A program made the translations under genes and the position numbers. Under the pieces are notes generated by a model that saw only the letters and a program-made list of their open reading frames with translations, did no database searches and was not told where the DNA came from. A DNA stretch of 35,185 nt from a virus: the IMG/VR virus record IMGVR_UViG_3300025120_000224, positions 1 through 35,185 of that record. The stretch is one strand, 5' to 3'. Numbering within the stretch: the first letter of the stretch is position 1; the number at the start of each line of letters is the position of its first letter. Positions 10,345-34,656 of the stretch are shown one piece after another.

Positions 10345-10691
10345 AGTTCTTCTATACGTTTAGCTTTATCATCAATAATTAAATCGAATGATGGTTTAGT
10401 TGGTAATGTAATATCTTCTTTATACCCAACCACGAGATCATCAAAAAGACATCCCCATTTATTTAATTGTTGTATAGTTAATTCAGTATAATCAATTTTA
10501 CTAAAACCACCTCTAGCTGTATAATATGTTATATGCCATCCTTCTTTTTTAAGTTGATTTATTTTAGCTATATTATCAGTGCTGGGAATTGCTTTTTCAT
10601 AAATTCTTTTATTTGTATAAAAACATATTGTTTCATCAATATCCACAAAAGCTTTTTTTTGTCTATCAGGATATAATTTACTTTCTCTCAT
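10341..10691 (-). CDS. HAD-superfamily phosphatase of the sugar cassette
   Basis: This 116-residue HAD hydrolase has motif I FVDIDETICFY, with nucleophile Asp17 and acid/base Asp19. Motif II Thr58 is in ITYYTARGG, and the acidic motif IV is in LIIDDKAKR (Asp107/Asp108). It is small and capless, like HAD-III phosphatases in capsule and LPS loci. GmhB, which removes the C7 phosphate of heptose 1,7-bisphosphate in ADP-heptose synthesis, belongs to the same broad class. Lying between the nucleotidyltransferase (14-base overlap) and the cupin (4-base overlap), next to an HldA-like kinase, it is a good candidate for that step. The substrate is inferred from context only; GmhB-specific zinc-loop cysteines are not evident. 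Confidence 0.8.
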   Translation of the reverse strand: MRESKLYPDRQKKAFVDIDETICFYTNKRIYEKAIPSTDNIAKINQLKKEGWHITYYTARGGFSKIDYTELTIQQLNKWGCLFDDLVVGYKEDITLPTKPSFDLIIDDKAKRIEEL

Positions 10692-11070
10692 TTGATAAAA
10701 TGTCTGTTGTTGAATAATTGCCTATACGATCAAAATATACAATTTTTTTAGCATACTGACCACCTACAATTTCTTTTCCTTTCCAATCACTCCCAACTAC
10801 TAGAATATCAGGTTTAGTTATTTTAACTAACCATTCTAAATGTTCTTTATTATCAAAAACCATTACTTTATGTATAGCCTTTAAACTTTCTAAAGCGTAT
10901 ACTCTATCTTCTAAATTATTATAGGGTCTATTAGGGCCCTTATCTTTAGCTATTTTTTCATCAGAATCTATTCCAACGACTAGTATATCGCCTAATGATT
11001 TTGCAAAATTAAATAATTCAAAATGCCCTCTGTGAAGAATGTCAAAACAACCATTTACCCAAATTTTCAT
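10678..11070 (-). CDS. HxGH nucleotidyltransferase, HldE C-terminal/TagD-like
   Basis: This 130-residue protein activates a sugar 1-phosphate or polyol phosphate with a nucleotide. It has NGCFDILHRGH at residues 6-16, the HxGH signature, and NRPYNNLEDRVYAL at 47-60. VVGSDWKGKEIVGG spans about 91-104, and GNYSTTDIL at 117-125 is the ISTT-type motif. The length and the SDWKGKEIVGG segment fall between the HldE adenylyltransferase domain (ADP-heptose synthesis) and TagD glycerol-3-phosphate cytidylyltransferase. The adjacent HldA-like kinase favours the former. It is the first gene of the four-gene cassette, 14 bases after the unknown 155-residue protein, and its 3' end overlaps the HAD gene. 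Confidence 0.86.
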   Translation of the reverse strand: MKIWVNGCFDILHRGHFELFNFAKSLGDILVVGIDSDEKIAKDKGPNRPYNNLEDRVYALESLKAIHKVMVFDNKEHLEWLVKITKPDILVVGSDWKGKEIVGGQYAKKIVYFDRIGNYSTTDILSNERK

Positions 11071-11084
11071 AACCTATTTTTACT

Positions 11085-11552
11085 TTATAACTCTATAATT
11101 TTATATATTTTTGTATTTAATTGATTTAATTCATTGTGTTGAGTAAGTAAAACACAATTTCTATAATGTTGCCAATCCACCTTGTAGCTAGTATCTACAA
11201 CCCCACCATTAAGTTTTTTAATAAGTTCATTTAAAGCATTAATAGTATATAAAGTATTTGATTCTTTTTTTCTATGCACCAAGATAGTATTATCTGGGAT
11301 TGTACTTAAATTTGTTTGATCTACATTATATGTAACTACATATTCATCTTTCCCTACTATTTCTAGTACAAAAAGTTTATTGTATATAATATCATATTTG
11401 GATTTAATGTCTTCAATAAGAACATCAAGACCATTTAAATCTGTAAATGTGCAAAAAAGTTTATTATTCAAATCGCCTAATATTTTAATGTCAGATACGA
11501 CATCATATTCTGTATTATACATATTAGGATTATTCTGTAAAATTGTAGTCAT
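11085..11552 (-). CDS. Hypothetical protein between polymerase and sugar cassette
   Basis: I do not recognise this 155-residue protein. It is predicted soluble, with no signal peptide or transmembrane segment and no P-loop or metal-binding motif that I can see. It alternates short beta-like stretches (KLFVLEIVGKDEYVVTYNVD) with a helical segment (TLYTINALNELIKKLNG), followed by YKVDWQHYRNCVLLTQ. The start overlaps the end of the polymerase gene by 23 bases in another frame, and the coding sequence ends 14 bases before the nucleotidyltransferase. The tight coupling to the polymerase suggests an accessory replication role, but nothing in the sequence proves it. Confidence 0.7.
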   Translation of the reverse strand: MTTILQNNPNMYNTEYDVVSDIKILGDLNNKLFCTFTDLNGLDVLIEDIKSKYDIIYNKLFVLEIVGKDEYVVTYNVDQTNLSTIPDNTILVHRKKESNTLYTINALNELIKKLNGGVVDTSYKVDWQHYRNCVLLTQHNELNQLNTKIYKIIEL

Positions 11553-12801
11553 AACCTTCTATTTCTTTTATGTTTAATTTATATTTTTTAAATACTTCTC
11601 TAATACTATCTAAAACTTCTGCTTCCTCATCATCTACATCTAATAAAAACGAATCATATGTATATAATACTAATTGCGTTTTATATTTCCTCAATATACA
11701 AAGTATATCCCATAATATCAACACATTTGTAGACGTTTCTAAATTTTGTAAAATATAATTAAATAACTTTTGTGGATTCATATTATCCAAGTTTTTCTTT
11801 TCATATCTATATCCAGAAATCTTACATTCTACAAACCCATCGCTTTGGAACTTATCCCAAAGTTCTCCTACGTATTTCTCAATTTTTTGAAAGAATTCCA
11901 GGCCTCGATAATTTTCGAAAACGCCTCCATAGAGCTGCTTGAAGGTAAGTTCCTTCGATTTTTTATAATCCACTCCATATAAGGACGCAAAATGAGAGTG
12001 AATATCAACACCGGAAAAATCATACCCAATAAGACGAGCAGACAAGCTAGGGTGGTAAGCACTAATGTCAATTTCCACAAACCTATTATTACGTGGTATA
12101 AAACTTTTTCTACATCCATTTTCTTTATTAAGTGCCGCATAATTTACATTATTAAATTTATTACTAGGTCTAGTAGTTGTTGTTTTTAAGTTGAACTGAG
12201 TGTTGACGTATTCACCGTCAACTGCGTGGAAGTATCCACTGAAGGTTTCATTGTGTATACGTATGCCACTTCTCTCGATGGCGTTGAATACCACTGACAC
12301 TCGACTGTTAAAGAACTCATCATATTTTGTTATTTTATTGTTAATATTCGCTTTTAAATCTTCAAAAATGTTTTCACACAATTCATAATGTTTAACAATC
12401 GGGATAATTAAATTTAACTCGGGATTATCCTTATGTTGTCTATAATATAAATCATGTGTAGGTGTTGTAGGTCGTATATACGGATTAGGGGGTGGATTAA
12501 TGTCATAAAGAGTTTTGATTGGGAAATAATGTAATATTTCTTTTTTATCTCTACAATATAATATTTCAAATTTATTTAATAAATCGTTTATACGCGTGTT
12601 TAATGCATTTAAAGATTCACTATGTGTAACACATACCATAAAACCTTTACTCGCTTCAATCGGTCTAATATACACTAAACTAACATGGTTTTGTACGGGG
12701 TGTATTGTGTCATTGTAAGGTATTACCTCAATGAAAGCCTTTTTATAACTACTATTTATTAAAACATTTAACTGCTCCTCGTCTTCTACAAGCCAGTACA
12801 T
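11530..12801 (-). CDS. Compact family A (PolA-like) DNA polymerase
   Basis: This 423-residue protein has the pol I palm and fingers motifs. A TTTTRPSNKFNNVNYAAL segment at about 207-224 matches the pol I TGRLSS...NLQNIP region. Motif A is EIDISAYHPSLSARL with Asp245. Motif B is KELTFKQLYG, with Lys283, Phe287 and Tyr291-Gly292 at pol I spacing. Motif C is YTYDSFLLDV with Asp383. Both catalytic aspartates are kept, but the usual HDE of motif C is YDS and the FG of motif B is FK. At 423 residues it is far shorter than E. coli pol I (928) or T7 polymerase (704). The N-terminal 130 residues could be a degenerate exonuclease remnant. Whether it is the replicative enzyme or a repair or translesion enzyme is open. 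Confidence 0.85.
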   Translation of the reverse strand: MYWLVEDEEQLNVLINSSYKKAFIEVIPYNDTIHPVQNHVSLVYIRPIEASKGFMVCVTHSESLNALNTRINDLLNKFEILYCRDKKEILHYFPIKTLYDINPPPNPYIRPTTPTHDLYYRQHKDNPELNLIIPIVKHYELCENIFEDLKANINNKITKYDEFFNSRVSVVFNAIERSGIRIHNETFSGYFHAVDGEYVNTQFNLKTTTTRPSNKFNNVNYAALNKENGCRKSFIPRNNRFVEIDISAYHPSLSARLIGYDFSGVDIHSHFASLYGVDYKKSKELTFKQLYGGVFENYRGLEFFQKIEKYVGELWDKFQSDGFVECKISGYRYEKKNLDNMNPQKLFNYILQNLETSTNVLILWDILCILRKYKTQLVLYTYDSFLLDVDDEEAEVLDSIREVFKKYKLNIKEIEGYDYNFTE

Positions 12802-13696: not shown

Positions 13697-16600
13697 TTAT
13701 GCTGGATTAGGTGGTTGGTTAGTTAAAAATAATTTTGATTCCATATTTCTTCTACTCCTTAATATGGGCTTACCACCAGCATTTACCATAGTATCAGCTA
13801 ATACTTCTCCTGCTTTTGTATAATCTTTTGCTAATATTAAGTCATATAATTTCTTTTTACCTGGAGTTTTTGTTCCATAAAAAGGACCTGTATTATAGTT
13901 AAAATGAACTAAAGCATCAAATTCATTTTGAGTAAATGGAATTTGTCCCCATCCCCCAGATTTTACCATTTGTTGTCCAGTATAGTTAACTATATCATTG
14001 AATCCTTTATTTCCGGAATTTTGAGTTATTTGGTCTCCTAATTTTATTTCATTTTTACCATCTCCTCTTCTAACAAATGATTTTCCTGTTTGAGTTTGAA
14101 GTACTCCATTTCTAGTATACTGTTGACCTGGGGTATAATAAGTTTGACCATACCCTATTGTAATAGGTTTACCCTGTTTAACTGGATCATTTTTAGTACC
14201 TGGGTCTTTATATGCATTTGCTCTAAAAGCCTCTGATGATTTTAATTTTTTTCTTACATTATTTGATGGTACTAGTTGAGAAGGTAAATATCTTTGAGCA
14301 TTTCCATTACTTTCAGATTGACTAAGTGTTTCATTTTCATCTAAAACTAAATAATCAAATAATCCTGTGTCTACTGCTTCAATATTATCAGGTTGTGTTG
14401 GGGGTATACTTAAAGTAGTAATTTTAGTTATCCACTTTTCATCTTGAAGGTCATGATTTATTGTCATAACAAGAAAAGTTAAAGCTTGGGTTCCAAAATT
14501 TTGGTATTCAACTGGGAGAAATCTATTATTTACATTAATTCTTTGAAAAAGTTTTATCCCACTAATTCCATCTACAGTTAAACTTAATTCAATAGGAATA
14601 AAACCTCCTTGATTAGATGGATTTCCTGTTACTCTAAATATTTTTTGATCTCTTTTTCTTAAATATTCTTTAAATGCAGCTTTTCCTTGACTAAAGAAAC
14701 CCGTATTGTCTCTATTTAGGTATAAAGCTTCATCTAATCCAATAGAAAAAGGTTGACCATCAACATCTTTTTTTCCAGCTAAAACCCCTCCTACAGCATA
14801 AACAAGCCAAGTTTGGTAAGATAATTCAAAATCAATATCTGTTACATCTAATACATCTTTTCCTTGTATTTTTTTCCATGCAATATAACCTGATATGGCT
14901 GTTTCAAGAGATTCATTTTCAAAATTCCATCCTTTATATCTACCAGTTTTTCTATTTCCCGAACCATTTCTTGCATTTATTGTTACATAATTTTTATCTT
15001 TTACACCAGAGCTTGTTCTAAGATATGCCCATCTAATAAAGTCTCCATCTTCTTCTTCTCTGTAACCTAATTGTTTATTTCTTAAATCTCGGTCTGTTGA
15101 TAATTTACCTGGGATATTTCTTTGGACATCGGTAACTACTATATCACCCCACCATTCCTTTAATTCAGCTCTAATTTCTGATTCTTCTTTTAGTTTAGAT
15201 ATTTCTATTAATTGTTCTTCTGTAATAAAATCTGGTGGTGGAGCTATAGATTTTTGGAATCTATCAATTAACCCAGAATTAATATTTCCAAAAGCTGTAC
15301 CATCTGTTACTTTAGATTGTGACCCGCCTGCAGTTGTTCCAATTGTTATGTTTGTAGCTAAGCTTGAATCAATTTTAGTTTCAAAGTTAAATTCTTTAAC
15401 AAAGTTTGATATTGGTGTTTTACCAGTTGTATTAAAACCAAACACTTCTAAAGGAGTAATTTCTTGTGGTTCAGGAATATAAGATAATAATTTTTTTAGT
15501 ACTTGAGGATTACCTTTTATTGGATTTTGGTCTATAAAAACTAAAGTATTTTTTTCAGCATTAATAATAGGTTCAATTTTATTAACATCACCCAAAGCAC
15601 TATTAATTCCTTTACATATTTCAGAAAAAAATGAAAATAAATCTACAACACCACTATCATTATTACTTTGGTTTAAACATTGTTTTATAAAATTAAAGTT
15701 TAAATATAAATTCATTAATTTTCCATAAAAAACATCAATTTTACCTTCTTTTTCTAAAATAAAATAATCTTTTATACTATCTGCTTGGAGAGTAGATGAT
15801 GCTTGACCATCACGACCTAATATCCCCGGAGCAAATAACATTGGTTTTACAAAACAAACTCCTAAATCAAAAGATATCTGGTTTGGTTGGGCACTTATAA
15901 CATTTATTTCCTCATCAAATTCAATATTTAATATTGGAAGATTACCTTTTGGGCCTATTACTCTTGGTAAAATATTATTATAAACTTTTTCTAAAAATGT
16001 TCCAAATCGTACAAAATAACTATTTTCATGTGTTGTTCCATCTTGGATTTGAAATTTACCCGTATATATATTATTTAGTTGAAGGATATCCTCTTCAAAT
16101 GCTTCTACGTTTTTAGTTTTCTTTTTTATTTCAGCTAATTTCTTTGATATTTCAACGAAATTCCCAGTAATTTTAACTTCTTCTCCTTTATCATTAAGAG
16201 TTTTAAATTCAGTTGTTTCGGTACGAGGTCGATTAGTATAATTTAAAGACTTTAAATTAATATAATTACCACCTTGAAATACAGAATTTTTGGATTTATC
16301 TTTATTTATAAAATTATCTAACCATACTTCCATAGTAGATGGAGCATTAATCCATGGATTATTAGATGAGAATGACTTTATATTAGCTGGGATGTTCATT
16401 TGGATGGATTCTACTATATCTCCTAGTGTTATTAATTTTAATGTAATATCATATACACCTTGATCATTAAAAGTCCAGCTAAAATTAACTACTCTACCAA
16501 AAAAACCATCATAATTACCGCTATATTCTTCTCTATAATTTTGAATAAGTTGTAATGCTTCATTTTGAGATAATTTTTTGTTATCTTGAAAAAAATCATT

Positions 16601-17431
16601 ATCTAAAAAAGTATTTCCTATTTCCTCTAAATCGCCAGAATTATTTAGGAATTTTTGATGACCCCATTCTAAATACATAGTAAACCCTAATCTTAAATAT
16701 AAAGTTTCTAGTAATTGAAATTGAAAAGTATTATATGCCTTTATTTGAATAGTTGCATCCCTAGTTGAACCTCTGTTAATACATTCTATAGTAGCAGATG
16801 TTATACCGGGCATAGGTTGTTTACCAAAATTTGGGCCTCCTAGACCATAAGCTTTACTACCATTCCAAACATCATTTTTATACTGTATACCTTTTCTTTG
16901 ACTAAAATTAGAAATAATAATTTCTCCCTCTATATTTTCATTTATTTTACTTAATCCTCCCCATAATACAGCTGATCTTGCTAGCTCAGATTTATTTTTA
17001 AATCTTTTAATTTCATTCTCACTAAATCCTATTGATCTTAATTTATTTTTAGCTATTTCAGTTTGAAGTTGATTATTTTGTATAATTTGTTCTCTATATG
17101 ATTTATATTTTTCTTTATCTTCTTGTTGAAAGATAGGTAGTCTCCCACTGCTTCTATATGCCTCTATATACCCTGTATCTTCTTCAAGTTTTATAAGAGT
17201 TTTTAGCTCATCAAGTTCAGAAAGTCCATCTAAGCTTTGGGGTACAGAATGGTTACTAAAAAGATCAACACTTGATGCTAATCTTAAAAATGAATTTTTA
17301 TTATTTAAAAGTTGAATTTGATTAGGGGATATAGATTGATCATTAAAACCAGAACCCATAAGTTCTTGTCTTTTTTTAATTTGTTCAAAAACAAAAGGAT
17401 CAAACTCTTCTCCTAGTAAATTTCCAGTCAT
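13697..17431 (-). CDS. Large baseplate hub protein with C-terminal T4-type lysozyme
   Basis: This 1244-residue protein is the largest in the window. The first 1000 or so residues are structural, with beta-rich segments such as TIQIKAYNTFQFQLLETLYL and a hub-like middle region. The C-terminal 180 residues form a GH24 muramidase. The T4 catalytic triad is recognisable: Glu1067 in LKSSEAFRANAYKD, Asp1076 in the same segment and Thr1091 in ITIGYGQT. An insertion lies between Asp and Thr, and a conserved FDALVHFNYNTG helix follows. A tail lysozyme would cut peptidoglycan during injection, as T4 gp5 does. Here the enzyme sits at the C-terminus of a much longer chain than T4 gp5 (575), possibly combining gp27- and gp5-like roles. 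It is 2 bases after the LysM wedge gene. Confidence 0.86.
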   Translation of the reverse strand: MTGNLLGEEFDPFVFEQIKKRQELMGSGFNDQSISPNQIQLLNNKNSFLRLASSVDLFSNHSVPQSLDGLSELDELKTLIKLEEDTGYIEAYRSSGRLPIFQQEDKEKYKSYREQIIQNNQLQTEIAKNKLRSIGFSENEIKRFKNKSELARSAVLWGGLSKINENIEGEIIISNFSQRKGIQYKNDVWNGSKAYGLGGPNFGKQPMPGITSATIECINRGSTRDATIQIKAYNTFQFQLLETLYLRLGFTMYLEWGHQKFLNNSGDLEEIGNTFLDNDFFQDNKKLSQNEALQLIQNYREEYSGNYDGFFGRVVNFSWTFNDQGVYDITLKLITLGDIVESIQMNIPANIKSFSSNNPWINAPSTMEVWLDNFINKDKSKNSVFQGGNYINLKSLNYTNRPRTETTEFKTLNDKGEEVKITGNFVEISKKLAEIKKKTKNVEAFEEDILQLNNIYTGKFQIQDGTTHENSYFVRFGTFLEKVYNNILPRVIGPKGNLPILNIEFDEEINVISAQPNQISFDLGVCFVKPMLFAPGILGRDGQASSTLQADSIKDYFILEKEGKIDVFYGKLMNLYLNFNFIKQCLNQSNNDSGVVDLFSFFSEICKGINSALGDVNKIEPIINAEKNTLVFIDQNPIKGNPQVLKKLLSYIPEPQEITPLEVFGFNTTGKTPISNFVKEFNFETKIDSSLATNITIGTTAGGSQSKVTDGTAFGNINSGLIDRFQKSIAPPPDFITEEQLIEISKLKEESEIRAELKEWWGDIVVTDVQRNIPGKLSTDRDLRNKQLGYREEEDGDFIRWAYLRTSSGVKDKNYVTINARNGSGNRKTGRYKGWNFENESLETAISGYIAWKKIQGKDVLDVTDIDFELSYQTWLVYAVGGVLAGKKDVDGQPFSIGLDEALYLNRDNTGFFSQGKAAFKEYLRKRDQKIFRVTGNPSNQGGFIPIELSLTVDGISGIKLFQRINVNNRFLPVEYQNFGTQALTFLVMTINHDLQDEKWITKITTLSIPPTQPDNIEAVDTGLFDYLVLDENETLSQSESNGNAQRYLPSQLVPSNNVRKKLKSSEAFRANAYKDPGTKNDPVKQGKPITIGYGQTYYTPGQQYTRNGVLQTQTGKSFVRRGDGKNEIKLGDQITQNSGNKGFNDIVNYTGQQMVKSGGWGQIPFTQNEFDALVHFNYNTGPFYGTKTPGKKKLYDLILAKDYTKAGEVLADTMVNAGGKPILRSRRNMESKLFLTNQPPNPA

Positions 17432-24186: not shown

Positions 24187-26553
24187 TTATGCTGGAAATG
24201 TTGCTCCAGTTGGTAATACATTGAAATCTAATATTACAAATTCAGCTGTTTTAGTTGGTTGTAAGAAAATTTGTCCTACTAATTCGTTTCTATCTATTAC
24301 AGTTGGTGTATTATTAGTATCATCCATTACTACTTTAAATGCATACAATCCTTGTCTTTGTTGTACTCCTTCTAAATATGGATTAACAACACTTAAGAAA
24401 TTATTTCTTGTAGCGATTGTATTTTGTTCAAATACTAGATTATCAGCTACTCCAGAAATAAATCCTTTAAGAGCAATTAATAATCTACGTACATTTACTC
24501 TATCTAAAGCACTAGCTCTTTTCTGTAGTGTTTTTTGTCCAAATACAACTACTCCACTTTGTGGGAATGTAGCTAATGGATTAACATTTGCTTCATATAA
24601 AGTATCTCTATTATTTGCTGTTAATCTTCTTTCAGCTCTAACTACTTGTCCTAAAGCTCCTCTAGTTAATCCAGCTGGTGCAAACCATGGTTCACTTGAA
24701 GCATCTGTAAAGACATATACTCCTGGGATTACTGTTGAAGCTGGTACAAATACTAATTCTCCAGTTTGTGGATCAATCATTTGAACCCATGGCCAATATG
24801 TAGCAGCATAACTATTATCAAATGAAGAAGCTGCTTGTGTTACTGAAGCTACTGAACTTCCATATTTTACTAGGTCTACTACTGCAACATTATCACCTCT
24901 ATTTAATGAATTATTAACTAAAGCTGTTGTTTGAGTTGCGTGTACTGCGTTAATTAATCCAGGAGCACTAATAACATTATATTGGTATTCATCTACATTT
25001 CCTAATAAGGCAATTGCGTTATCATAATTACTACCAGTTAATCCTTGTGTATCAAATGCAGCACCATTACCTATATCTCCGTAAAAATTAGCTAATCTTG
25101 AAGAAGCTGCTGTTGTAATATTTCTACCTACAGCACCTCCAAATGAACCTGATGATACAGCTGGTAGGCTACCTGTAAAGTTATCTTTTGCTGCTCCATT
25201 ATTATCAAAATAATTTGGAGTTTTTCTTACTGATTTAACTCTTACATAGCTTGATAAGTTAGCATATGAACCTGATTCTTGGATATAATAATCTGCTCCA
25301 TCATTTACTAAATTTTTCTTAATATCACCAATTTGTGCTCCAATATAGTTTGGTTGATATGGATCTAGTGATACATCTAAATATTGTTCTAATACTACTT
25401 GTTGATTAGTATTATCATTTCCTCTTCTAATTAGTAAACTAAATGTTCCAGATCCTGTATTTACACTAGCTACTGACCAACGTACATTTTGTGTTGAACC
25501 TGATACTAAAGCTCCGTTTGATAATTGGCTTGTTCCAGTGTTCATTATTTCCCCTTCAGAAATTGTTTCTAACTCAAATGATGGGGCTGATGCTTCTAGA
25601 TTATCTGTGTCTAAAGTTATTGTAAAAGTTCCTGCACTTAATTCATCTGCTGTAAGTGTTAAAACAAGGACACCTGTTCCGCCTGCGTCTCCAGTTTGAG
25701 CATTAATAGCATCAAGTGATAAAGATAATGTTGTATCTACTATTGATCCTTCTCCGACAGAACTTGGGACTACATTAGTAATTACTCCATTTAAAATAGT
25801 TACGTCAACAGATACTCCTGTTGCAGTTCCTCCACCACCTACTATTAAATCTGTAGCAGCAGTGCTACCACTAGTAAAGGTATAAGTTCCATCTAATGAA
25901 TCATCACCTGTATTTGTATTAAATGTGTTTGTTGAAACAGCATCAAAAATTGTAGTTGAAATTAATGGCGAACCACCGTTATCGTTTGAAGAAAATGTAA
26001 TTACATCTCCTACTTTATATCCTGTTCCTGCTGAAGATGCTGTTACTGCAGCTTCTGCTCCATTATCTGTTACTAAATTAAATACTGCTCCAGAACCTCC
26101 TCCTGTTGCAGAATAAGTAGCTGCTGTATAAGTTACAGTTTCTGCTGATCCTGTAAAAGCTGATCCTGCAGATACCCCATTAGCAAATAATGCTGCTGCG
26201 TTTGTATCACCCGTTAATAAAGGTTCACCATCTACTGAGTCTACAAATGAACTTGTAGCAGAAGAGAATGTTTCGGGTACTACTCTAGTAACTAATAAGC
26301 TATTCCCACCACTTTGAAAATAATTATTTGCAGCTAATGCAGTTAAATATGAATAAGCAATTGAACCACTTTGTACAGTAGTACCAAAAATTGCTGAATA
26401 TTGGCTAAAAGAAGTAACTAATGTTGGAACTTCAACAGGACCTATTGCAGCTGGTCCGATAATAGCGGCACCTACTTCTGCGGGCTGTTGAGTAATAAAT
26501 GATTGGTCGTTTTCTCTAGCTAATACACCTGGAGATAATAATGTTTCTGCCAT
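24187..26553 (-). CDS. Contractile tail sheath protein, gp18-like
   Basis: This 788-residue sheath subunit contracts to drive the tube through the envelope. The N-terminus (ETLLSPGVLARENDQSFITQ, then VGAAIIGPAAIGPVEVPTLV) is the classic sheath start. The C-terminal core (ALDRVNVRRLLIALKGFISG and onward, ending ILDFNVLPTGATFPA) matches the sheath domain that packs on the tube. Between about residues 110 and 330 lies a Gly/Thr/Ser-rich insertion. It contains a GSGAVFNLVTDNG...GTGYKVGDVITFS unit (about 148-189) and a weaker related unit (about 245-305). These are probably surface beta domains. The length is above that of T4 gp18 (659). A coiled-coil gene lies upstream and the tube gene directly downstream. 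Confidence 0.95.
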   Translation of the reverse strand: MAETLLSPGVLARENDQSFITQQPAEVGAAIIGPAAIGPVEVPTLVTSFSQYSAIFGTTVQSGSIAYSYLTALAANNYFQSGGNSLLVTRVVPETFSSATSSFVDSVDGEPLLTGDTNAAALFANGVSAGSAFTGSAETVTYTAATYSATGGGSGAVFNLVTDNGAEAAVTASSAGTGYKVGDVITFSSNDNGGSPLISTTIFDAVSTNTFNTNTGDDSLDGTYTFTSGSTAATDLIVGGGGTATGVSVDVTILNGVITNVVPSSVGEGSIVDTTLSLSLDAINAQTGDAGGTGVLVLTLTADELSAGTFTITLDTDNLEASAPSFELETISEGEIMNTGTSQLSNGALVSGSTQNVRWSVASVNTGSGTFSLLIRRGNDNTNQQVVLEQYLDVSLDPYQPNYIGAQIGDIKKNLVNDGADYYIQESGSYANLSSYVRVKSVRKTPNYFDNNGAAKDNFTGSLPAVSSGSFGGAVGRNITTAASSRLANFYGDIGNGAAFDTQGLTGSNYDNAIALLGNVDEYQYNVISAPGLINAVHATQTTALVNNSLNRGDNVAVVDLVKYGSSVASVTQAASSFDNSYAATYWPWVQMIDPQTGELVFVPASTVIPGVYVFTDASSEPWFAPAGLTRGALGQVVRAERRLTANNRDTLYEANVNPLATFPQSGVVVFGQKTLQKRASALDRVNVRRLLIALKGFISGVADNLVFEQNTIATRNNFLSVVNPYLEGVQQRQGLYAFKVVMDDTNNTPTVIDRNELVGQIFLQPTKTAEFVILDFNVLPTGATFPA

Positions 26554-26875: not shown

Positions 26876-26887
26876 ATTATAAATATT
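26876..26887 (-). promoter_or_regulatory. Putative late promoter element at the island/tail boundary
   Basis: The minus strand reads AATATTTATAAT, overlapping the last codons and stop of the reductase gene, 12 bases before the ATG at 26863. It sits exactly where the accessory island gives way to the tail genes, which supports a new transcript starting here. Confidence 0.55.
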
Positions 26888-27596
26888 GACAGAATTCTTT
26901 TAATGCCAATATTTGTGTTTTTAATGGTAAAGTTTGTACCCCACCAACTAAGCATTTATCTTTTTTTGGTTTATCTACGGGGTTTATTTTAATTTCTTTT
27001 TGATATATTTCTTTTAATAATAAAAGTAAATCATACTTTGATATACATTCACTATGTAAAATAGTTTCTGTGTTATGACTATCCCAATTAAACATAAGAT
27101 ATAAACAATATTGAGCCCAAGTTAATGTAGTATTACCATTGGATAAATAATTAGTATAACCATTTATTTCATTCTCTTGTGAAAGAAACCAACTCATTAA
27201 ACTTGCTGATGAATCCCATTCAGGACCAAAAACATTAGTTTTTATAATTTTAGTTCTTTTTCCATTTTCTTTTATCCATTCTGATGCTTGTTTTTTAGAT
27301 AAGCCATATTCATCATTATCGTCATCACAATCAGTTCCTGGGTATATAATTTTAAATTTTGTTTGTTCTTCTAACCATTGGGGTAATTCCCAATTTATTT
27401 CAAACTTATCTGTTTTTTGAGATATAGCTCCGGCACAATTAATAATAAATTCACCATCAAAATTACATACCGCATTCTTAAATTCTATTGATGGAAATTT
27501 TTTATCAGTATAAGCTATTTTAAATCCTTTTGAATCTAAAAATGCTGCAACCATATGTCCTAACATTCCTTTATGGCCTAAAATTAATACTTTCAT
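26877..27596 (-). CDS. RmlD-like NAD(P)-dependent sugar-nucleotide reductase
   Basis: This 239-residue short-chain dehydrogenase of the extended type has a dinucleotide-binding motif at the N-terminus (MKVLILGHKGMLGHMVAAFL, GxxGxxG pattern). An FIINCAGAISQ strand follows, then the catalytic Tyr and Lys in EYGLSKKQASEW, and a substrate-side TNVFGPEWD segment. This order resembles dTDP-4-dehydrorhamnose reductase (RmlD) and related epimerase/reductases that finish deoxysugar nucleotides. It is somewhat short for the family (about 290), mostly in the C-terminal substrate lobe. It starts 1 base after the glycosyltransferase-like gene, so it is probably part of a glycan-synthesis operon. The actual substrate is unknown, and an epimerase is also possible. 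Confidence 0.8.
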   Translation of the reverse strand: MKVLILGHKGMLGHMVAAFLDSKGFKIAYTDKKFPSIEFKNAVCNFDGEFIINCAGAISQKTDKFEINWELPQWLEEQTKFKIIYPGTDCDDDNDEYGLSKKQASEWIKENGKRTKIIKTNVFGPEWDSSASLMSWFLSQENEINGYTNYLSNGNTTLTWAQYCLYLMFNWDSHNTETILHSECISKYDLLLLLKEIYQKEIKINPVDKPKKDKCLVGGVQTLPLKTQILALKEFCQYL

Positions 27597-27597
27597 A

Positions 27598-28515
27598 TTA
27601 TAAATTTTCTATTTTGTTTAATTTGTCTTTAGTATAAATATTAGTAATATCTACTAACTTTGAATCAATAAATATACCTAAATATTTTATATCAGGCAAA
27701 TTTATTACTTCATTAATTTGTTTTAATATTATATTTTCTCCATTTACATTGATTTTAATATTAAGATTATTAAAATTATCATAAATTAATAATTGTTTAT
27801 TACTAACTGAAAAAAATAATTTAAAATTTGTATTATATTTATTATAATTTAAAACATCAGGAGACCCACATTCTAAAGTACCCTTTACTTTTACTTCTGT
27901 TTTTTTATATTTAAAATTTTCTAAAATACTTTCCCAATAACTTTCAGCATCATTATACATTGAAGTTTGGGTATTAGGAATTTGTTTTACATAATCTGAC
28001 TTACTAAGTAAAGAATCAACTTTGATAATATTATCTTTACTTAAAATATTTAATAATAACCCAGGAAATAAAGGTTGGTTAGTTGCTGGGTCTATATAAT
28101 TACTACAAATAAAATCTTTGGGATCATTAAGTAATTCTAATATTTCGTTAGTAATTTTAGTATCATAATTAATAAAAGAACAAAATGGATAATCTAAATT
28201 ATTATTTAGTGAAATAGCATTTTTAATTAAATTAAAAACTGTCCAACCATAATCTTCTTTAATATGAGAAATTTTTATTTGGCCCCCTACTGTTTTCCAA
28301 AATTTCATTCCTCTTTCTGGAAAACGTAAAATTGGGTTACTTTGATCATATACAAAATAATCAATTTGAGACTGGATTGAGGTTGGGAGTGGTGAATGGG
28401 ATGAAATTAGGATATTAAAGTTATTTTTTAAAATAGAAATAGTACTTTGTAATATATCTAATTTTTCTTGTGTATCACAATAACATAAAATTACTATTAA
28501 ATTTTTATTTTTCAT
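27598..28515 (-). CDS. Glycosyltransferase-like protein
   Basis: This 305-residue protein starts with a strand-helix pattern (KNLIVILCYCDTQEKLDILQ, then NNFNILISSHSPLP) typical of the nucleotide-binding half of GT-A glycosyltransferases. A YPFCSFINYDTKITNEI segment near residues 108-124 could supply the metal-binding acidic site, although a canonical DxD is not present. FERGM-like and YGWTVFNLIKNAIS segments are also glycosyltransferase-like. The C-terminal 80 residues are beta-rich and Asn/Ile-rich and may be an acceptor or carbohydrate-binding part. The start overlaps the large glycosyltransferase gene by 11 bases. The function is assigned by fold-like pattern and context only. Confidence 0.6.
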   Translation of the reverse strand: MKNKNLIVILCYCDTQEKLDILQSTISILKNNFNILISSHSPLPTSIQSQIDYFVYDQSNPILRFPERGMKFWKTVGGQIKISHIKEDYGWTVFNLIKNAISLNNNLDYPFCSFINYDTKITNEILELLNDPKDFICSNYIDPATNQPLFPGLLLNILSKDNIIKVDSLLSKSDYVKQIPNTQTSMYNDAESYWESILENFKYKKTEVKVKGTLECGSPDVLNYNKYNTNFKLFFSVSNKQLLIYDNFNNLNIKINVNGENIILKQINEVINLPDIKYLGIFIDSKLVDITNIYTKDKLNKIENL

Positions 28516-31500
28516 AACATGCTATATAAGTTGATATGTCTTTTAATTTATTGTATTTAGTTATTGATTCGTACTCAATATAGTTTGTATCCGAGTTACC
28601 TTTAAACCAATCACCTTTTTTATTTAAGATTTGATTTATAATAGATTGTTCTGATTCATATAATTTAAGTAATAATTTTTTAGTCTCCAAATATGTTTTG
28701 GATATTTTTTGTGAAGATTTACCAAATACATAAAAATCATCAGTCTCATTTTTAACAGCATCAAAAATTAATTTGTGTTGAGGGTGTCCATATTCACCAA
28801 TAGGGTTATGAGTTACTATTTTATCCCAATTTTTATAATTAATTATATTTTTTAAATCAAATTGTTTTGTAGGGTATAAAGTATCTTCATAGTCGAACAT
28901 TTTCCAAGAACCTACATTTAATTTTTCCATTACTTGTTTAAATTCTTCACTTCTAATTTTATTTGATTTATTTGTAAGACAAATTACTTTATAATCAGAA
29001 CCATGTTTTATTAATTCTTCTCCTCCAAATATTAATTCATCATCAGGATGAGCAATAATCATTAATTTAGATGATTTATAATCATTAAAAGTTTTATTTA
29101 AAATATCTGCACCTTTAGGAGTTACTGAAGGATCAGGACCATGTATAAAGTAAGGTTCTAAAGTATTAGTATCATACATTACATCAAAACCTTGTTTTAA
29201 ATAAGGTAAATTAACTTTTATTTCATCCTCTGAACTATAATAATTATTCCATGTAATGGGTAAATCTAATGTCTTATTTTCTTCCCAAAGTATATTGTTA
29301 GCTACCCTTTCTTCTGAAAATGCATTATCATCTACATAAATTTTAATATTGTATAAATTTAATTCTTTATTCCATTTTAAACATTTATCAAAAAATGGTT
29401 TACTTTCTTTATTATAAAAATAAAAACCAGTAGCAATTAATTTTTTATTTGGATTTCTAGTTATATTTTTAATTGAAGCTAACTCGCTACCATAATTTCC
29501 TTCTAATTTAATATTATTATAATACCTCCACTGATTAATATCTTCGTGGAAGTATTTCATAAATAAAGGATAATCTTTTAAATTTTCTAGATATTGTAAA
29601 GAATTATCAATATTTTCTGTTGCAAAAGCATCTCCATCAATCCAAGCAAAATTATCATAATTTTCTTTTAGTGAATCTAAACTAGCTAAATACTTAGCAA
29701 AAAATATTGAGTAATCTTTATTAAATAAATTTGGTTCTCCAATTGATTCCGATTTTGGTTTTGGACGATAATCTATTCTTTTATTAATAACATTAGGAAG
29801 ATTTATTTTAGAATCACAATTAAACCCATAAACTATAATTTTATGTTTTGAATATTTAAGTAAACTTTTAGCTAAAACTTCTATCATAGGAAGATAACTT
29901 TCATTACCTCCTGTTATCCATATAAAAGATTTTTTTTTATTTTTATTATCTAATAAATTTAATGCTTTGTTAATTACAACTTCTGGTGTTAAAGATTTTT
30001 GACAAATATGTTGTTTATTTGTTCCCTTATGTTCTGGGCACCAATCCCAATCTCCTGTATCAAAAATATAATCTTTATTAACCCAACAATTATTACACAC
30101 AGAATGGTTTTCTACTTTAGTTAAATTATTAGGCACATCATACCCATAAGGAACAAAATTATTAACCATTAAAGTATGTTTTCCCATAGCCCAATTAACC
30201 CAAGATAATCCTGAACCTAATCCTACAAATAAATCTGCATGATGAATATAATTAAATAATTTATCCCAAGGTAAATTTTTCTTATTAATAATATTTTTAC
30301 CTTTAAACCCATTAAGTGTTAAACTAATAACTTTATAACCCTTTTTAGTTAGAGAATCAGCTAATTTAATCCAACTTTCATATTGCCATTCTTTTAGTCC
30401 TGCTGTGGCTTGGGGTCCAATACAAACATATTTTTGTTTTAATGGTCTTTTTCCTATTTTATAATCAATTCCATAGTTAACAGGATTATAAGGAATATTT
30501 AAAATATCAGCAGCAGCCTGGATTAATGGTATTGTGTTTACTTGGGTTGGATGATCATTTAAGTTTTTCCAACCTCCTTTTTCATCTCTAAACCAACCAA
30601 TTTGAAAATGAGCGTAACATGGAGGAGTTTCTCCTGGGGGTACAAATTTGATATCATTATAATCTTTTAGATTTTTAAACCATTCATTATGAAATGTACT
30701 AACTATAACATTACATTTATATTTATTTTTAAATTCTATCACTTGTGGGGCCCAAGCTAATGTATCTCCTATTGATTTTGATTCAAATGAAATTTTTACT
30801 GTTTTATTTTCTAAATTAAAAGTATGTACTACTTCACCATTAATTTTAATTATCCAAGGTATATTATATGTTTTACTACAATGAGTCCACATATTATTAG
30901 TAATAGTAGCTACATGAACTATTTCATTAGTAGAACCATTTATAAATTCAACTGTATATTTGTTATTATGGTGTCCAAGGACTTCTACTTTAGGACCTAA
31001 ATTAAAACTTATTTCTACTTTATTTTGTGGGATATTTTTTAATAAATTTTCTAATTCTTTACCTGCTATTTTAGCAGCATTTTCCCAAGTAAACTTTTTT
31101 CTAATTATTTTAGACTCTATTATAGATTGTTCTTTATGATATTCGTAATTTTCATAAGCATCTCTCATCACTTCTTTTAGATTATTAAAATCAGGATCAT
31201 AAAATTCCCCTTCTAACATTTCTTGAGAAAAACTACTATATTCCCCTTTTTTAGCTTTAGATGTAGATAAAATACTTACTGGCAATCCTAGTCCCTCAGC
31301 AAATTCTAATTGTGCACTACAATTTGAATATATAGAAGGTGTACCACAAGCCATTGCTTCAATTAAAGGTAAATTCCAACCTTCAGATCTAGCACAAGAT
31401 AAAAATACATGACCTTTCTGTAAAAATTTTATATATTCTTTTCTAGTAGGAAAGTGTTTTACTTTTACTCTAGGGTCATTTAACTTATAATGTTTTAATC

Positions 31501-32233
31501 TTTTTTCTGTAGATTTAAATTTATCTTTAGCATAAGGATTATCAATAGATACTATTAAGTCAACGGGTTCATCTTTGTCAAATTCTTCTAAAAAAGATTC
31601 TATTAATTCTTTAGTTGATTTTCTATAATCCCATCTACCAAATATAACAAATTTAAATCTACCATCATCATAATCAGGTAAAGTTACTTTATTATTAGGT
31701 TTAAATATATTACCATCAACTGCCTCTGGGACAACTTTTACTTTATTTTCTTCTATACCTTGTTCTACAGTACAATCTTTTTGCCATTGAGAAGGAACCC
31801 AAATTTGGTCAAATGTTTTTAATTGGTCAAAAAAATAATCTGGTTGTCTTGTAGTTTCCCATACATTATATGCTATTTTAGGACCCTGGTAGTCTTGGTA
31901 AAAGAAATGATGGTTTGTTTCATTAAGAACTATATTAATATTGTGATTAAAATTATTAGGATAATTAGAATAAAATGAGTGGTGATTTAATTTATCATCA
32001 TTATCCCATAAAGATTGTTCAACTAATAATTTTTTATCTAAATTATCTATATAATCTTCTCCATTATGGGGCTCATCATTATGTCCTTCCCAAGAACCTC
32101 CTATAGTAAAATTTCTAACTTTTAAATTATATATGTTAGATAATTCTCTATAAAAAGCTCTTGTGTGATTAGCATAACCAGTAGTACCAATGTAACTACC
32201 ATGTGCAAAAATTTTAGGTTTTTGTTTTGTCAT
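28505..32233 (-). CDS. Four-domain glycan enzyme: GT4-like, TibC-like heptosyltransferase, GT-A, PIG-L deacetylase
   Basis: This 1242-residue protein joins four modules. Residues 1-400 are a GT-B glycosyltransferase, with FVIFGRWDYRKSTKEL at 195-210 and the GT4 donor motif SEGWNLPLIEAMACGTPS at 283-300. Residues about 405-762 resemble autotransporter O-heptosyltransferases (TibC/BAHT). The matching features are a beta-rich entry, ISFESKSIGDTLAWAPQVIE, LFVGLGSGLSWVNWAMGK, and Cys713, Cys716, Cys732 and Cys744, which match the iron-site cysteines of that family. Residues about 765-1035 look like a GT-A enzyme with the acidic motif FAWIDGDAF (Asp866/Asp868). Residues 1055 to about 1160 are a PIG-L/LmbE deacetylase, with AHPDDE at 1061-1066 and GEYGHPQH at 1146-1153. 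It overlaps both neighbouring genes, so the island is translated as a unit. Confidence 0.88.
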   Translation of the reverse strand: MTKQKPKIFAHGSYIGTTGYANHTRAFYRELSNIYNLKVRNFTIGGSWEGHNDEPHNGEDYIDNLDKKLLVEQSLWDNDDKLNHHSFYSNYPNNFNHNINIVLNETNHHFFYQDYQGPKIAYNVWETTRQPDYFFDQLKTFDQIWVPSQWQKDCTVEQGIEENKVKVVPEAVDGNIFKPNNKVTLPDYDDGRFKFVIFGRWDYRKSTKELIESFLEEFDKDEPVDLIVSIDNPYAKDKFKSTEKRLKHYKLNDPRVKVKHFPTRKEYIKFLQKGHVFLSCARSEGWNLPLIEAMACGTPSIYSNCSAQLEFAEGLGLPVSILSTSKAKKGEYSSFSQEMLEGEFYDPDFNNLKEVMRDAYENYEYHKEQSIIESKIIRKKFTWENAAKIAGKELENLLKNIPQNKVEISFNLGPKVEVLGHHNNKYTVEFINGSTNEIVHVATITNNMWTHCSKTYNIPWIIKINGEVVHTFNLENKTVKISFESKSIGDTLAWAPQVIEFKNKYKCNVIVSTFHNEWFKNLKDYNDIKFVPPGETPPCYAHFQIGWFRDEKGGWKNLNDHPTQVNTIPLIQAAADILNIPYNPVNYGIDYKIGKRPLKQKYVCIGPQATAGLKEWQYESWIKLADSLTKKGYKVISLTLNGFKGKNIINKKNLPWDKLFNYIHHADLFVGLGSGLSWVNWAMGKHTLMVNNFVPYGYDVPNNLTKVENHSVCNNCWVNKDYIFDTGDWDWCPEHKGTNKQHICQKSLTPEVVINKALNLLDNKNKKKSFIWITGGNESYLPMIEVLAKSLLKYSKHKIIVYGFNCDSKINLPNVINKRIDYRPKPKSESIGEPNLFNKDYSIFFAKYLASLDSLKENYDNFAWIDGDAFATENIDNSLQYLENLKDYPLFMKYFHEDINQWRYYNNIKLEGNYGSELASIKNITRNPNKKLIATGFYFYNKESKPFFDKCLKWNKELNLYNIKIYVDDNAFSEERVANNILWEENKTLDLPITWNNYYSSEDEIKVNLPYLKQGFDVMYDTNTLEPYFIHGPDPSVTPKGADILNKTFNDYKSSKLMIIAHPDDELIFGGEELIKHGSDYKVICLTNKSNKIRSEEFKQVMEKLNVGSWKMFDYEDTLYPTKQFDLKNIINYKNWDKIVTHNPIGEYGHPQHKLIFDAVKNETDDFYVFGKSSQKISKTYLETKKLLLKLYESEQSIINQILNKKGDWFKGNSDTNYIEYESITKYNKLKDISTYIACYEK

Positions 32234-32432
32234 TTAACCCAAATTTACTAAATTTATACCAAAGTCTTTCGTGTAGGAAGTATAGCACCATTTTGGAAAT
32301 GATTTCTATTCCCCCTATAGCCAAACCTGCTTCCCAAGAACCCGTTATTAGTCCTGAAATTACTACTGTATCTATTGATCCTATTATTCGCCATGAAACT
32401 GTTTTTGCAATGTGTCTTTTATAACTTACCAT
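32214..32432 (-). CDS. DUF2061-family small membrane protein
   Basis: This 72-residue protein matches the DUF2061 pattern: a basic N-terminus with KTVSWRIIGSIDTVVISGLI, a Gly/Trp turn (TGSWEAG), then AIGGIEIISKMVLYFLHERL and a closing W-Y-K motif. Two transmembrane helices are expected, at about residues 15-33 and 37-55. From memory, bacterial DUF2061 proteins are often encoded with or fused to sulfate-activation genes such as cysC. That fits the APS-kinase-like gene three positions upstream. The function of the family is not known. It overlaps the nucleotidyltransferase stop by 14 bases and the large glycosyltransferase start by 20 bases. Confidence 0.85.
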   Translation of the reverse strand: MVSYKRHIAKTVSWRIIGSIDTVVISGLITGSWEAGLAIGGIEIISKMVLYFLHERLWYKFSKFGLNDKTKT

Positions 32433-32817
32433 CTTTTTTCATTTGTTTTCTTATAGAAGTAGCTGATATTTCTCCTATTTCAGATGGTGGAACGTGTTCA
32501 ATAATATCATATCCAACTCCTCTACCATAATTAATCGATTCTATATCAGGTATAATAGTTGGTAATACTTTACCTTCTTTAATAAGTTCTTTTAACTCAC
32601 CTTCTTTTACCATTTCTAAAATTTGTTGTGCTGTCCAAGGATTCTTTTTATCCGGTTTTACATCTCTAATTCCTAACCAAACATTATATCCTTGTTTTAA
32701 TCTTTCATTAATTAACCATAAATGCCCTTTATGTAAAGGTTGCCATCTACCAGCAAAAAATGAATACTTTACTTCTGATGATGAAGACTCTTTGTCTGCT
32801 TTTGCTTTAAATTCCAT
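32419..32817 (-). CDS. HxGH nucleotidyltransferase, NMN adenylyltransferase-like
   Basis: This 132-residue cytidylyltransferase-fold protein starts after a disordered Ser/Lys-rich leader of about 16 residues. Its signature GRWQPLHKGHLWLI carries HKGH at 29-32. An RDVKPDKKNPWTAQQI loop follows, then the closing ISATSIRKQ at 117-125, the ISxTxIR motif that binds the triphosphate. This set is closest to archaeal-type NMN adenylyltransferases (NadM) and related enzymes that adenylylate small phosphates. It overlaps the HAD phosphatase by 11 bases and the DUF2061 gene by 14. Beside an APS-kinase-like gene it could activate a sugar or another metabolite instead of NMN. The substrate is open. Confidence 0.8.
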   Translation of the reverse strand: MEFKAKADKESSSSEVKYSFFAGRWQPLHKGHLWLINERLKQGYNVWLGIRDVKPDKKNPWTAQQILEMVKEGELKELIKEGKVLPTIIPDIESINYGRGVGYDIIEHVPPSEIGEISATSIRKQMKKDGKL

Positions 32818-33145
32818 TATCTCTTATTAAGTTTATTGCTATTGCTCTTTTTTCTGGTTTATTTGGGTCCATATCATTAATTAAATATCTAGGTCCTCTT
32901 TCAATCCCCATAATTAATCTATGATATGGTACTTCATTTTCATATAATTCTATTTCAGTATGCATCCTAAGGTATTCAGGGCGTGCTGTAGTTAAAATTA
33001 TCATATGTCCTTCAACTGATGCTTTATCTAGGTAATCTATAGTAGATTCTATTCCTTCAGCTTTTGTAGTTTCGTATGTTTCAAATTTGCGATATTTAAA
33101 TATAGTACCATCTATATCACAAAAGTATGTATTTTTTTTCTCCAT
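32807..33145 (-). CDS. HAD-superfamily phosphatase of the kinase cassette
   Basis: This 112-residue capless HAD hydrolase has motif I FCDIDGTIFKYR, with nucleophile Asp10 and acid/base Asp12. Motif II Thr52 is in IILTTARPEYLR, and motif IV is RYLINDMDP with Asp91/Asp93. The LTTARPEYLR plus MGIERGPRYLINDM arrangement resembles phosphatases fused or adjacent to kinases, including the 3'-phosphatase half of T4 polynucleotide kinase and capsule-locus HAD proteins. It starts 1 base after the P-loop kinase and overlaps the nucleotidyltransferase, so the three probably act together. A sugar-phosphate or nucleotide-end substrate cannot be told apart from sequence. Confidence 0.82.
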   Translation of the reverse strand: MEKKNTYFCDIDGTIFKYRKFETYETTKAEGIESTIDYLDKASVEGHMIILTTARPEYLRMHTEIELYENEVPYHRLIMGIERGPRYLINDMDPNKPEKRAIAINLIRDNGI

Positions 33146-33146
33146 A

Positions 33147-33659
33147 TTAGTTATCTAATTGATAATCCGAAGGTGGTAATTCATTTAATAATGATCCTTT
33201 AGGATATACTACATCTAAACCAGTCTTTTTGGCTATTATCTTTAATGATTCTTCTGGTGTTTGATTTGTAGTGTCAATATTAATATAATCTAAGTCTGGT
33301 TTTTGGAACTGCATAACATGGTAATTTTCTCTACCTCTAAATCCTTTTTCTACATCATAATGTACAAAAATTTCATGTAATTGCCACTTCATTATATCCT
33401 TAAATTCTTCTCTTTGATCTAAATAAGGAGAAACTAAAGATACGATTACATCTTTACCTTGGTTGTGTAAATAATGAGCAATTTTTTGAGCAGCATCTAC
33501 ATTAGTTATTCTACCTTTTATAGAATAATCTTTATTTGTAAATAATTCTCTCATTTCATCTCCATCTATGCGGTAGGCATGAGGGAGATATTTTTCTTTA
33601 AGCATGTTTGCTAAAACGGTCTTTCCTGAACAGGGTTGACCCGTAAACCAATATATCAT
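33147..33659 (-). CDS. APS-kinase-like P-loop kinase (CysC family)
   Basis: This 170-residue protein starts with the P-loop WFTGQPCSGKTVLANML (GQPCSGKT at 7-14). RIDGDEMRELF at 30-40 follows, matching the LDGDxxR substrate motif of adenylyl-sulfate kinase. Next comes GRITNVDAAQKIAHYLHNQG with a VSLVSPYLDQREEF stretch, matching the CysC ISPY..R region. Canonical CysC makes PAPS from APS for sulfation. The protein is about 30 residues shorter than typical CysC, and the C-terminal substrate lid is reduced. Other small-molecule or polynucleotide 5' kinases share the fold. It is the first gene of the accessory island, just after the putative promoter at 33674-33692 and a palindrome next to its ATG. 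Confidence 0.83.
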   Translation of the reverse strand: MIYWFTGQPCSGKTVLANMLKEKYLPHAYRIDGDEMRELFTNKDYSIKGRITNVDAAQKIAHYLHNQGKDVIVSLVSPYLDQREEFKDIMKWQLHEIFVHYDVEKGFRGRENYHVMQFQKPDLDYINIDTTNQTPEESLKIIAKKTGLDVVYPKGSLLNELPPSDYQLDN

Positions 33660-33714: not shown

Positions 33715-34656
33715 CTATTCTTGCCTAGTTTGACCATTAGGATATTCTCTATTTGCTGGAACTGATTGAACTCCAGGTTTAAAATTATCACTATTACTTG
33801 TTGTTTCAAAATTAATTGTAACTTTAGATTTGCTATTAAATTTATTAATCGAATGCATTTCTTTTTGAATAGTATCAGGAATAATATAACCTCTTAATTG
33901 TATATTAAATGTGCCTAATACTAATCTATCTCTACCGGTTGTTAATTCTGTTTTTGTATTAAATGAATCTATAAAGGCTCTAAATTTAAACCTTTCAGGG
34001 TTACCCCAATAAGCATCAGATGCATATTCACATGCTTCAATTATTTTATTTAATTGTTCCATATAATAAGTTTGTATAAGTACACTATATTCTAAAGTTA
34101 CAAAATCTGGGACTGCAACTGCATAATGTTCTTTTACAGGTTTTTTATTATTTAAAACTGAAAAATTGTTATAAAAATTATCAGGACTATATTTCTTTTG
34201 AAATGATCCATATAAATTAACTCCATTAGCATCTAATTTATTGTAAACAGATCTATCTTTTGATATAGTATCTCTTTTTAAAACAATAATAGGTAACATT
34301 ATAGCACCTTTTTTATCTCTATAATATCCATCTCTTTGGAATGATTTCCATCTTTCTGGGGCTCCATATATTATAGGTACATTTCTTCTTTCTCCATTTT
34401 GGTATACAAAAGGTTTAATTACATTTTTAAAGTAATAAAATACTGCTTCATCTAAATCTTGAATACCAATAGAAAATGGTTTTACTGAATCATCTTTAAA
34501 ACTTAATTTAGTTGATCTATTAAAAGGTATACCCGTTTGTGATTCGTTTGAATTTACAGTAGAATTAGGATTACCTCTTCTAGTATCAGTAGCTTTTTGT
34601 TGCTCAATACTTAGTTGCCTTTGTGTTTTTGGAATTGGTTTTCTAATTTTACTCAT
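33715..34656 (-). CDS. Tail completion / sheath stabiliser protein, gp15-like
   Basis: This 313-residue protein resembles T4 gp15 (272 residues), which caps the tail and joins it to the head. Matching features in order are NVPIIYGAPERWKSF (T4: VPITYASKEHF) near residues 91-105, then a MLPIIVLKRDTI strand. VTLEYSVLIQTYYMEQLNKI near 189-208 matches the T4 MIYELSIFTRYEDDMFQIVE region, and LGTFNIQLRGYIIPD near 248-262 matches T4 SLTFEVNGWMYPPV. The N-terminal 60 and C-terminal 30 residues are polar and probably disordered. It overlaps the gp14-like stop by 1 base. In T4 the terminase genes follow gene 15; here an accessory island does. Confidence 0.83.
   Translation of the reverse strand: MSKIRKPIPKTQRQLSIEQQKATDTRRGNPNSTVNSNESQTGIPFNRSTKLSFKDDSVKPFSIGIQDLDEAVFYYFKNVIKPFVYQNGERRNVPIIYGAPERWKSFQRDGYYRDKKGAIMLPIIVLKRDTISKDRSVYNKLDANGVNLYGSFQKKYSPDNFYNNFSVLNNKKPVKEHYAVAVPDFVTLEYSVLIQTYYMEQLNKIIEACEYASDAYWGNPERFKFRAFIDSFNTKTELTTGRDRLVLGTFNIQLRGYIIPDTIQKEMHSINKFNSKSKVTINFETTSNSDNFKPGVQSVPANREYPNGQTRQE

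Follow-up and report, generated by a model that had tools for sequence, protein, structure and literature searches.

A chain of 1242 residues that joins three glycosyltransferases and a PIG-L deacetylase is encoded by a piece of a marine T4-like phage, the 35,185-base virus record that was analyzed over its whole length and is referred to here as the window. We put the chances at about even that its gene lies at the heart of a glycosylation cassette that is optional and interchangeable in T4-like phages, probably those of Bacteroidota, and that probably decorates a virion protein. The gene is a single minus-strand frame of 1242 codons that runs from ATG to stop with no internal stop codon, and the plus strand across the same interval is full of stops; the coordinates given for it in an earlier note on this DNA are correct, and the strand is minus (Table 1).

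Table 1. Positions in the window of the fusion gene, its modules and the genes at the same site
Feature	Position	Strand	Basis or remark
1242-aa fusion, GT4 / TibC-like / GT-A / PIG-L	28505-32233	-	single ORF; domain matches; same fused order in 40 loci
GT4 module, residues 1-400; E-x7-E (E284, E292) in SEGWNLPLIE	31034-32233	-	PF00534, phrog_2170
TibC-like (BAHT-like) module, residues 404-761, including N-terminal beta-barrel region	29951-31024	-	TIGR04414, PDB 4rap
Four-cysteine iron-finger, C713, C716, C732, C744	30002-30097	-	alignment with TibC C339, C342, C358, C370
TibC-like/GT-A junction with A9 run	29921-29959	-	split ORFs of 21 loci break here
GT-A module, residues about 772-1050; D866-G-D868 at 29630-29638	29084-29920	-	model and Foldseek
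PIG-L/LmbE module, residues 1056-1242; AHPDDE at 29036-29053, GHPQH at 28775-28789	28508-29068	-	PF02585
NB305, 305-aa protein	27598-28515	-	overlaps end of fusion gene; GT-A-fused in five loci; inside 1970-aa chain of L137
RmlD-like reductase	26877-27596	-	PF04321, 24.3 bits, under cut-off of 27
Tail sheath gene (gp18 type), one site border	24187-26553	-	PF04984; phrog_23, E=2.9e-63
Neck-type (gp14-like) gene, other site border	33715-34656	-	role inferred from gene order; anchor for locus search
Accessory genes at site	32214-33659	-	present in some relatives only
APS-kinase-like	33147-33659	-	
HAD-like	32807-33145	-	
Nucleotidyltransferase-like	32419-32817	-	
DUF2061, 72-residue membrane protein	32214-32432	-	

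The phage and its probable host

Other genes of the window, several of them named from their translations and gene order, encode a ribonucleotide reductase, a helicase, UvsX- and gp32-like proteins and the baseplate, tube, sheath and neck proteins. The host is probably a member of the Bacteroidota, since the nearest named relatives are Flavobacterium phages of the immuto group (UvsX, 61.9%; sheath, 52.3%). The cultured relative immuto (Flavobacterium sp. LMO8) has no match to the fusion, and a search of the window for tRNAs as clues to the host found none. Gene order in a 120-kb relative, the record that holds locus L012, is the same as in the window.

Three further regions of the minus strand stand out. 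The 423-aa protein encoded at 11530-12801 reads like the palm of a short family-A DNA polymerase (EIDISAYHP, YDSFLLDV); it has no NCBIfam match and is 91.7% identical in the 120-kb relative. A baseplate-region protein of 1244 aa, encoded at 13697-17431, ends in a phage lysozyme domain (PF00959, residues 1064-1231). At 9233-11070, an HldE-like sugar kinase and nucleotidyltransferase are encoded as separate genes with cupin and HAD-like genes between them; the 120-kb relative lacks the HldE-like genes at the corresponding place, and few other relatives have them. They were considered as a supply of heptose and rejected, the nucleotidyltransferase being closely matched in one other of 42 records (G040) and weakly in five. 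GmhA was found in none of 24 records.

Four enzymatic modules in one chain

A Pfam search of the 1242-aa protein identified PIG-L, Glycos_transf_1 and Glyco_transf_9. The TibC-like module matches NCBIfam model TIGR04414 (autotransporter O-heptosyltransferase) over model positions 10-370 of 374 with E=1.5e-54 and, as its score of 185.4 bits is below the curated cut-off of 200, it is referred to as TibC-like and not as a member of that family. In a search of PDB sequences it matches TibC (4rap) with E=1.6e-29. TibC uses ADP-heptose as donor to attach heptose to Ser of autotransporters; its Asp110, Arg286 (adenine contact), Trp305 (sugar-binding) and Lys230 are each required, Thr226 also binds phosphate and the four cysteines of its iron-finger are required (PMC4358343). 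Four of these five tested donor-site or catalytic residues are retained in the phage domain: D490, K614 and W678, the equivalents of Asp110, Lys230 and Trp305, are kept in all 81 sequences compared, while T610, the equivalent of Thr226, is kept in 76 and replaced by Ser in the other five. All four iron-finger cysteines are present in 77 of the 81. The phage module is thus like TibC in its whole-length similarity, its catalytic Asp, Thr, Lys and Trp and its four-cysteine finger, but differs in being fused to three other enzymes, in the position of Arg286 (L659 in the window; across the 81 sequences, Thr in 62, Leu in 13 and Arg in six) and, as aligned, in a 10-residue deletion just past the tip of the thumb, a beta-hairpin. 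By analogy with TibC, the phage domain should act on protein, possibly with a different donor; given that Arg286 is mostly replaced and that the score falls under the family cut-off, the donor and even the type of acceptor may differ from those of TibC.

The GT4 module matches PF00534 with 42.6 bits (E=6e-11; gathering cut-off, 26.4) and phrog_2170 with E=1.1e-33. Among the distinct sequences of this module, E284 of the E-x7-E motif is kept in 46 of 46 and E292 in 45 of 46. The PIG-L module matches PF02585 over residues 1056-1161 with 44.5 bits (E=2.8e-11; cut-off, 28.2), and its motif residues H1062, D1064, D1065, H1150 and H1153 are invariant in 49 of 49 sequences.

The GT-A module matches no Pfam glycosyltransferase family, the only Pfam match there being a chance-level one to DUF5014. 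An AlphaFold2 run with 13 close sequences was useless (pLDDT 42.8) and was replaced by one based on an alignment of 50 diverse viral sequences, which gave a pLDDT of 94.9. The Foldseek matches of this model are the GT-A enzymes glycogenin, LgtC, ABO transferase and WbbM; the top PDB match is glycogenin with E=3.3e-7, and TM-scores to the matches are only 0.35-0.50. The two Asp residues of the DGD motif are invariant in 52 of 52 sequences. As modeled, the module resembles GT8/GT6-type GT-A enzymes, and it is named GT-A instead of being filed under GT8 because it has no sequence membership in the Pfam GT8 family. Neither the GT-A nor the NB305 alignment produced a significant match when PDB sequences were searched with its profile.

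The domain matches, the GT-A model and its fold matches show that the four modules are real. Purifying selection acts throughout, with a dN/dS of 0.06-0.37 in each module, and the catalytic residues of all four vary little or not at all among homologs. The earlier note had read the chain as three glycosyltransferases and one PIG-L deacetylase and had suggested structure prediction as a check; that reading is borne out by the domain matches, the model and the conserved residues, and the loss of catalytic residues in homologs, which it had named as evidence to the contrary, was looked for and not found.

Fused, split and enlarged relatives

About 118 distinct loci emerged from two scans of viral contigs, one for the whole protein and one for the GT-A domain; 61 of them, the window's own included, hold complete TibC-like and GT-A domains. 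The two domains are in one ORF at 40 of the 61 loci and in two ORFs at 21, so the search of metagenomes for the same domain order that the earlier note had called for yields 40 loci with an identical fused order. These fused relatives span many metagenomes, with identities down to about 61%; all relatives compared in this work are sequences from metagenomes or databases. At split loci, there is usually an overlap of a few bases between the two ORFs, e.g., CTTAATGGATAA. The tree requires six switches between the fused and split states, at least five of which are forced by well-supported branches.

The module content varies as well. PIG-L is not established as a fixed part of the fusion: five relatives (L010, L011, L013, L015, and L086) are without PIG-L and have the GT-A domain fused to a homolog of the next gene, NB305, and in a sixth (L159), which has neither GT-A nor PIG-L, GT4-TibC and NB305 remain. 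NB305 itself has no family match in Pfam and NCBIfam searches. At L020, L024 and L054, the TibC-like gene is accompanied by another transferase-like gene in a separate ORF, while the simplest form, a TibC-like gene alone at the site, is found at L022. At the other extreme, L133 encodes a protein of at least 2718 residues that contains GT4, three FkbM methyltransferase stretches, DUF6625, two GT-A-family stretches, PIG-L, a further methyltransferase and TibC-like, and L137-L143 encode a 1970-residue chain of GT4, GT-A, NB305, NB305, PIG-L and TibC-like when TGA is read as Trp. A related set of modules is carried by L146 (5551-12478), a phage-like contig binned with a Bacteroidetes genome, in the order GT4-GT-A with a C-terminal methyltransferase-like stretch in one ORF, two short ORFs and an ORF of NB305 plus TibC-like; these modules adjoin fibre-like genes with GSSGTSG repeats. 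Bacterial and archaeal genomes, scanned once with two short patterns, also gave this contig as the sole match. Our best evidence that the modules serve one shared pathway is that the same families are fused in several orders in L133 and L137-L143, with the related set in L146.

In L137 (3540-9449; same in L138-L143), TGA appears to be read as Trp. TGA taken as a sense codon lifts open-frame coverage of the locus from 44 to 89%, and the 1970-codon frame contains 23 TGA, nine TGG and no TAA or TAG; where the fusion family has a conserved Trp, this frame has TGA at several positions.

The earlier note had also likened the protein to an assembly line. The enzymes may well be useful while the joining or separation of overlapping neighbors by small indels has little consequence, an explanation to which we give a probability only somewhat below even. 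The roughly half-dozen switches on the tree, the variable fusion partners and the overlap of the split ORFs, by which small changes at the junction suffice, all speak for it; persistence of the fused state in several well-supported deep clades with differing linkers speaks against it, and the very long chains found elsewhere suggest that fusion is favored. The assembly-line description is upheld only in part: the larger fusions suggest that linking is favored, but the need for fusion is not established, the halves being split in a third of the loci. Because split forms exist, the activities need no single chain, although physical linkage of the modules may still help. The order of domains along the chain does not give the order of reactions. 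Neutral joining and separation would bear on the assembly-line claim alone and would fit a glycosylation cassette equally.

That the fused frame of the window is an assembly or sequencing artifact joining two genes is barely conceivable, since the A9 run at its junction and the frame shift that breaks the GT4 module of L012 are outweighed by a further record, L014, that encodes the identical protein, by the many divergent fused relatives from different metagenomes and by the 28 distinct fused junctions, where A9-A10 runs occur in 11 and A runs of only 3-5 in nine, so that the fusion is generally no homopolymer artifact. Given the fused order in 40 loci, the junction linkers without long homopolymers in several of them and the purifying selection, chance and misassembly are excluded as general explanations of the fusion. 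Frame errors joining separate genes, the other objection that the earlier note had foreseen, were likewise tested for and not found, though at 21 loci the halves are separate ORFs. At L012 (6001-9721), the GT4 module extends over two overlapping frames, and the frame break may be genuine or may stem from a sequencing error.

An interchangeable site between neck and tail sheath genes

The phage context that the earlier note missed is an interchangeable site between the neck-type and tail sheath genes. To keep the survey of this site free of the bias that a search with the transferase would bring, loci were fetched with the neck gene alone; the sample consists of the 80 loci nearest to the window, is non-random and includes some near-duplicate records. 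Both borders are present in 23 of these loci, of which 15 have a TibC-type cassette (nine with PIG-L), three (L195, L202, and L224) are empty, with 56-123 bases between the borders, and five have other genes. Consequently, the cassette is dispensable and exchangeable. The TibC-like domain is its constant element and occurs in all 15 cassettes. The other occupants, in those that were read, are fibre-like genes, to which the L174 type adds GT9-like and sulfotransferase-like genes, named from reading the sequence.

A PseB/FnlA-like UDP-GlcNAc 4,6-dehydratase gene is found near the cassette at 24 loci and immediately before the RmlD-like gene at 14; of this pair, the window retains the RmlD-like gene only. 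The pair could make a 2-acetamido-6-deoxy sugar nucleotide, and PIG-L could expose its amine; among the relatives, the dehydratase and PIG-L are not consistently present together. The APS-kinase-like and nucleotidyltransferase-like genes, mostly together with DUF2061, travel as a group that is found in the window (32214-33659) and at L038, L039, L042, L051 and L056, and that adjoins, on the opposite strand, distant TibC-like fusions in other phages. At L174 (7388-10867) and at about 41-45 kb of the L012 record, a fibre-like gene is followed by the GT9-like and sulfotransferase-like genes (names from translations), which together with the APS-kinase-like gene hint at sulfation of something on the virion.

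Proposed function of the cassette

The acceptor, the donor sugars, the order of reactions and the virion as target of the cassette are what we infer from these observations. In our proposal, the TibC-like domain most likely puts the first sugar on Ser/Thr of a structural protein of the phage tail, neck or fibre; the glycan chain would be extended by the GT4 and GT-A domains, and PIG-L would remove the acetyl group from an N-acetyl sugar and leave a free amine. The TibC-like domain is favored as the priming enzyme because it is in every surveyed cassette and is alone at the site in L022, and N-acetyl sugar donors are suggested by the UDP-GlcNAc-dehydratase-like gene near many cassettes. A virion target is favored by the neck and sheath borders, by the fibre-like alternative occupants and by a relative in a Microcystis phage that is adjacent to a structural gene. 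Adjacency to structural genes is no proof of a structural target; insertion of cassettes between late genes is common. An obligatory role as acceptor was considered for the Ser/Thr-rich insert in the tail sheath of the window and rejected, as L022 and L024 pair TibC-like genes with a shorter sheath. Glycosylation of virions by phage enzymes is known (PMC12363180, PMC12619734).

It is possible, though unlikely in our estimate, that the cassette instead modifies O-antigen, capsule or a surface protein of the host during infection, e.g., for blocking superinfection or re-adsorption of progeny, and that its structural neighbors are coincidental. Loci for surface polysaccharides typically contain GT4-, GT9- and RmlD-like genes, there are known cases of phage seroconversion (cited in PMC7326821) and the targets of TibC itself are surface adhesins (PMC4358343). 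However, no membrane-bound transferase, flippase or polymerase was recognized nearby, where only the DUF2061 membrane protein is found in some relatives; the minimal cassette is a lone gene for an enzyme of the protein-acceptor type; and the phage, being T4-like, looks lytic. Glycosylation of modified bases of the phage DNA is very improbable: T4-like phages do glycosylate DNA, with other enzymes, and virus-encoded glycosyltransferases that hypermodify DNA are among the cases cited in PMC12619734, but a gene of the thymidylate-synthase/hydroxymethylase family (PF00303) is absent from 12 related records, all of which are fragments, the TibC-like architecture is that of a protein-acceptor enzyme and close relatives have empty sites.

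Building on virion decoration as the preferred reading, we tentatively propose a wider scheme, which is possible but less probable than the cassette itself: aquatic phages would have a modular protein-glycosylation system in which a TibC-like primer recruits chain-extending transferases, methyltransferases and a deacetylase by repeated fusion, in chains from about 1200 to more than 2700 residues, and in which cassettes are swapped beside the tail-sheath gene to alter the virion coat.

Comparison with known systems

The closest precedents of the fusion are A111/114R of chlorovirus PBCV-1 and bacterial TibC. In A111/114R, three glycosyltransferase domains of a single chain build part of the glycan of the major capsid protein, independently of the glycosylation organelles of the host (PMC7826918). 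The two proteins share the presence of several glycosyltransferase domains in one virus-encoded chain, a likeness of layout. A111/114R differs in that it belongs to a virus of eukaryotic algae, has galactosyl-, xylosyl- and fucosyltransferase domains, makes an N-glycan and has no TibC-like or PIG-L domain (PMC7826918). In Microcystis phage Mel-JY01, WWT39291.1 (annotated as methyltransferase FkbM) contains GT4 and TibC-like domains in one 1226-residue chain, and its gene adjoins a structural protein gene; it differs in its middle part and has no match to PIG-L. Stenotrophomonas phage DLP3 has clustered genes for PIG-L, sugar-nucleotide enzymes, a methyltransferase and a glycosyltransferase, all of which are separate, and a TibC-like domain is not reported (PMC7326821). 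Glycosyltransferases of mycobacteriophages modify capsid and tail-tube proteins (Freeman et al. 2023, cited in PMC12363180 and PMC12619734); going by these two accounts, they are encoded by separate genes and their hosts are unrelated, in contrast to the fusion reported here. In the open-access literature searched, no description of a phage TibC-like or PIG-L fusion was found.

If the proposal is true, tailed phages would have an equivalent of the multi-enzyme glycan synthases of chloroviruses, centered on a transferase that primes proteins and has so far been known from bacterial adhesins, and marine phages of Bacteroidota would offer a testable virion-glycosylation system. The relatives provide a natural series at one site, which is empty or occupied by the TibC-like module alone or by two, three, four or more modules. 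Some of the many glycosyltransferases in marine virus records that lack an explanation would also be accounted for by such a system.
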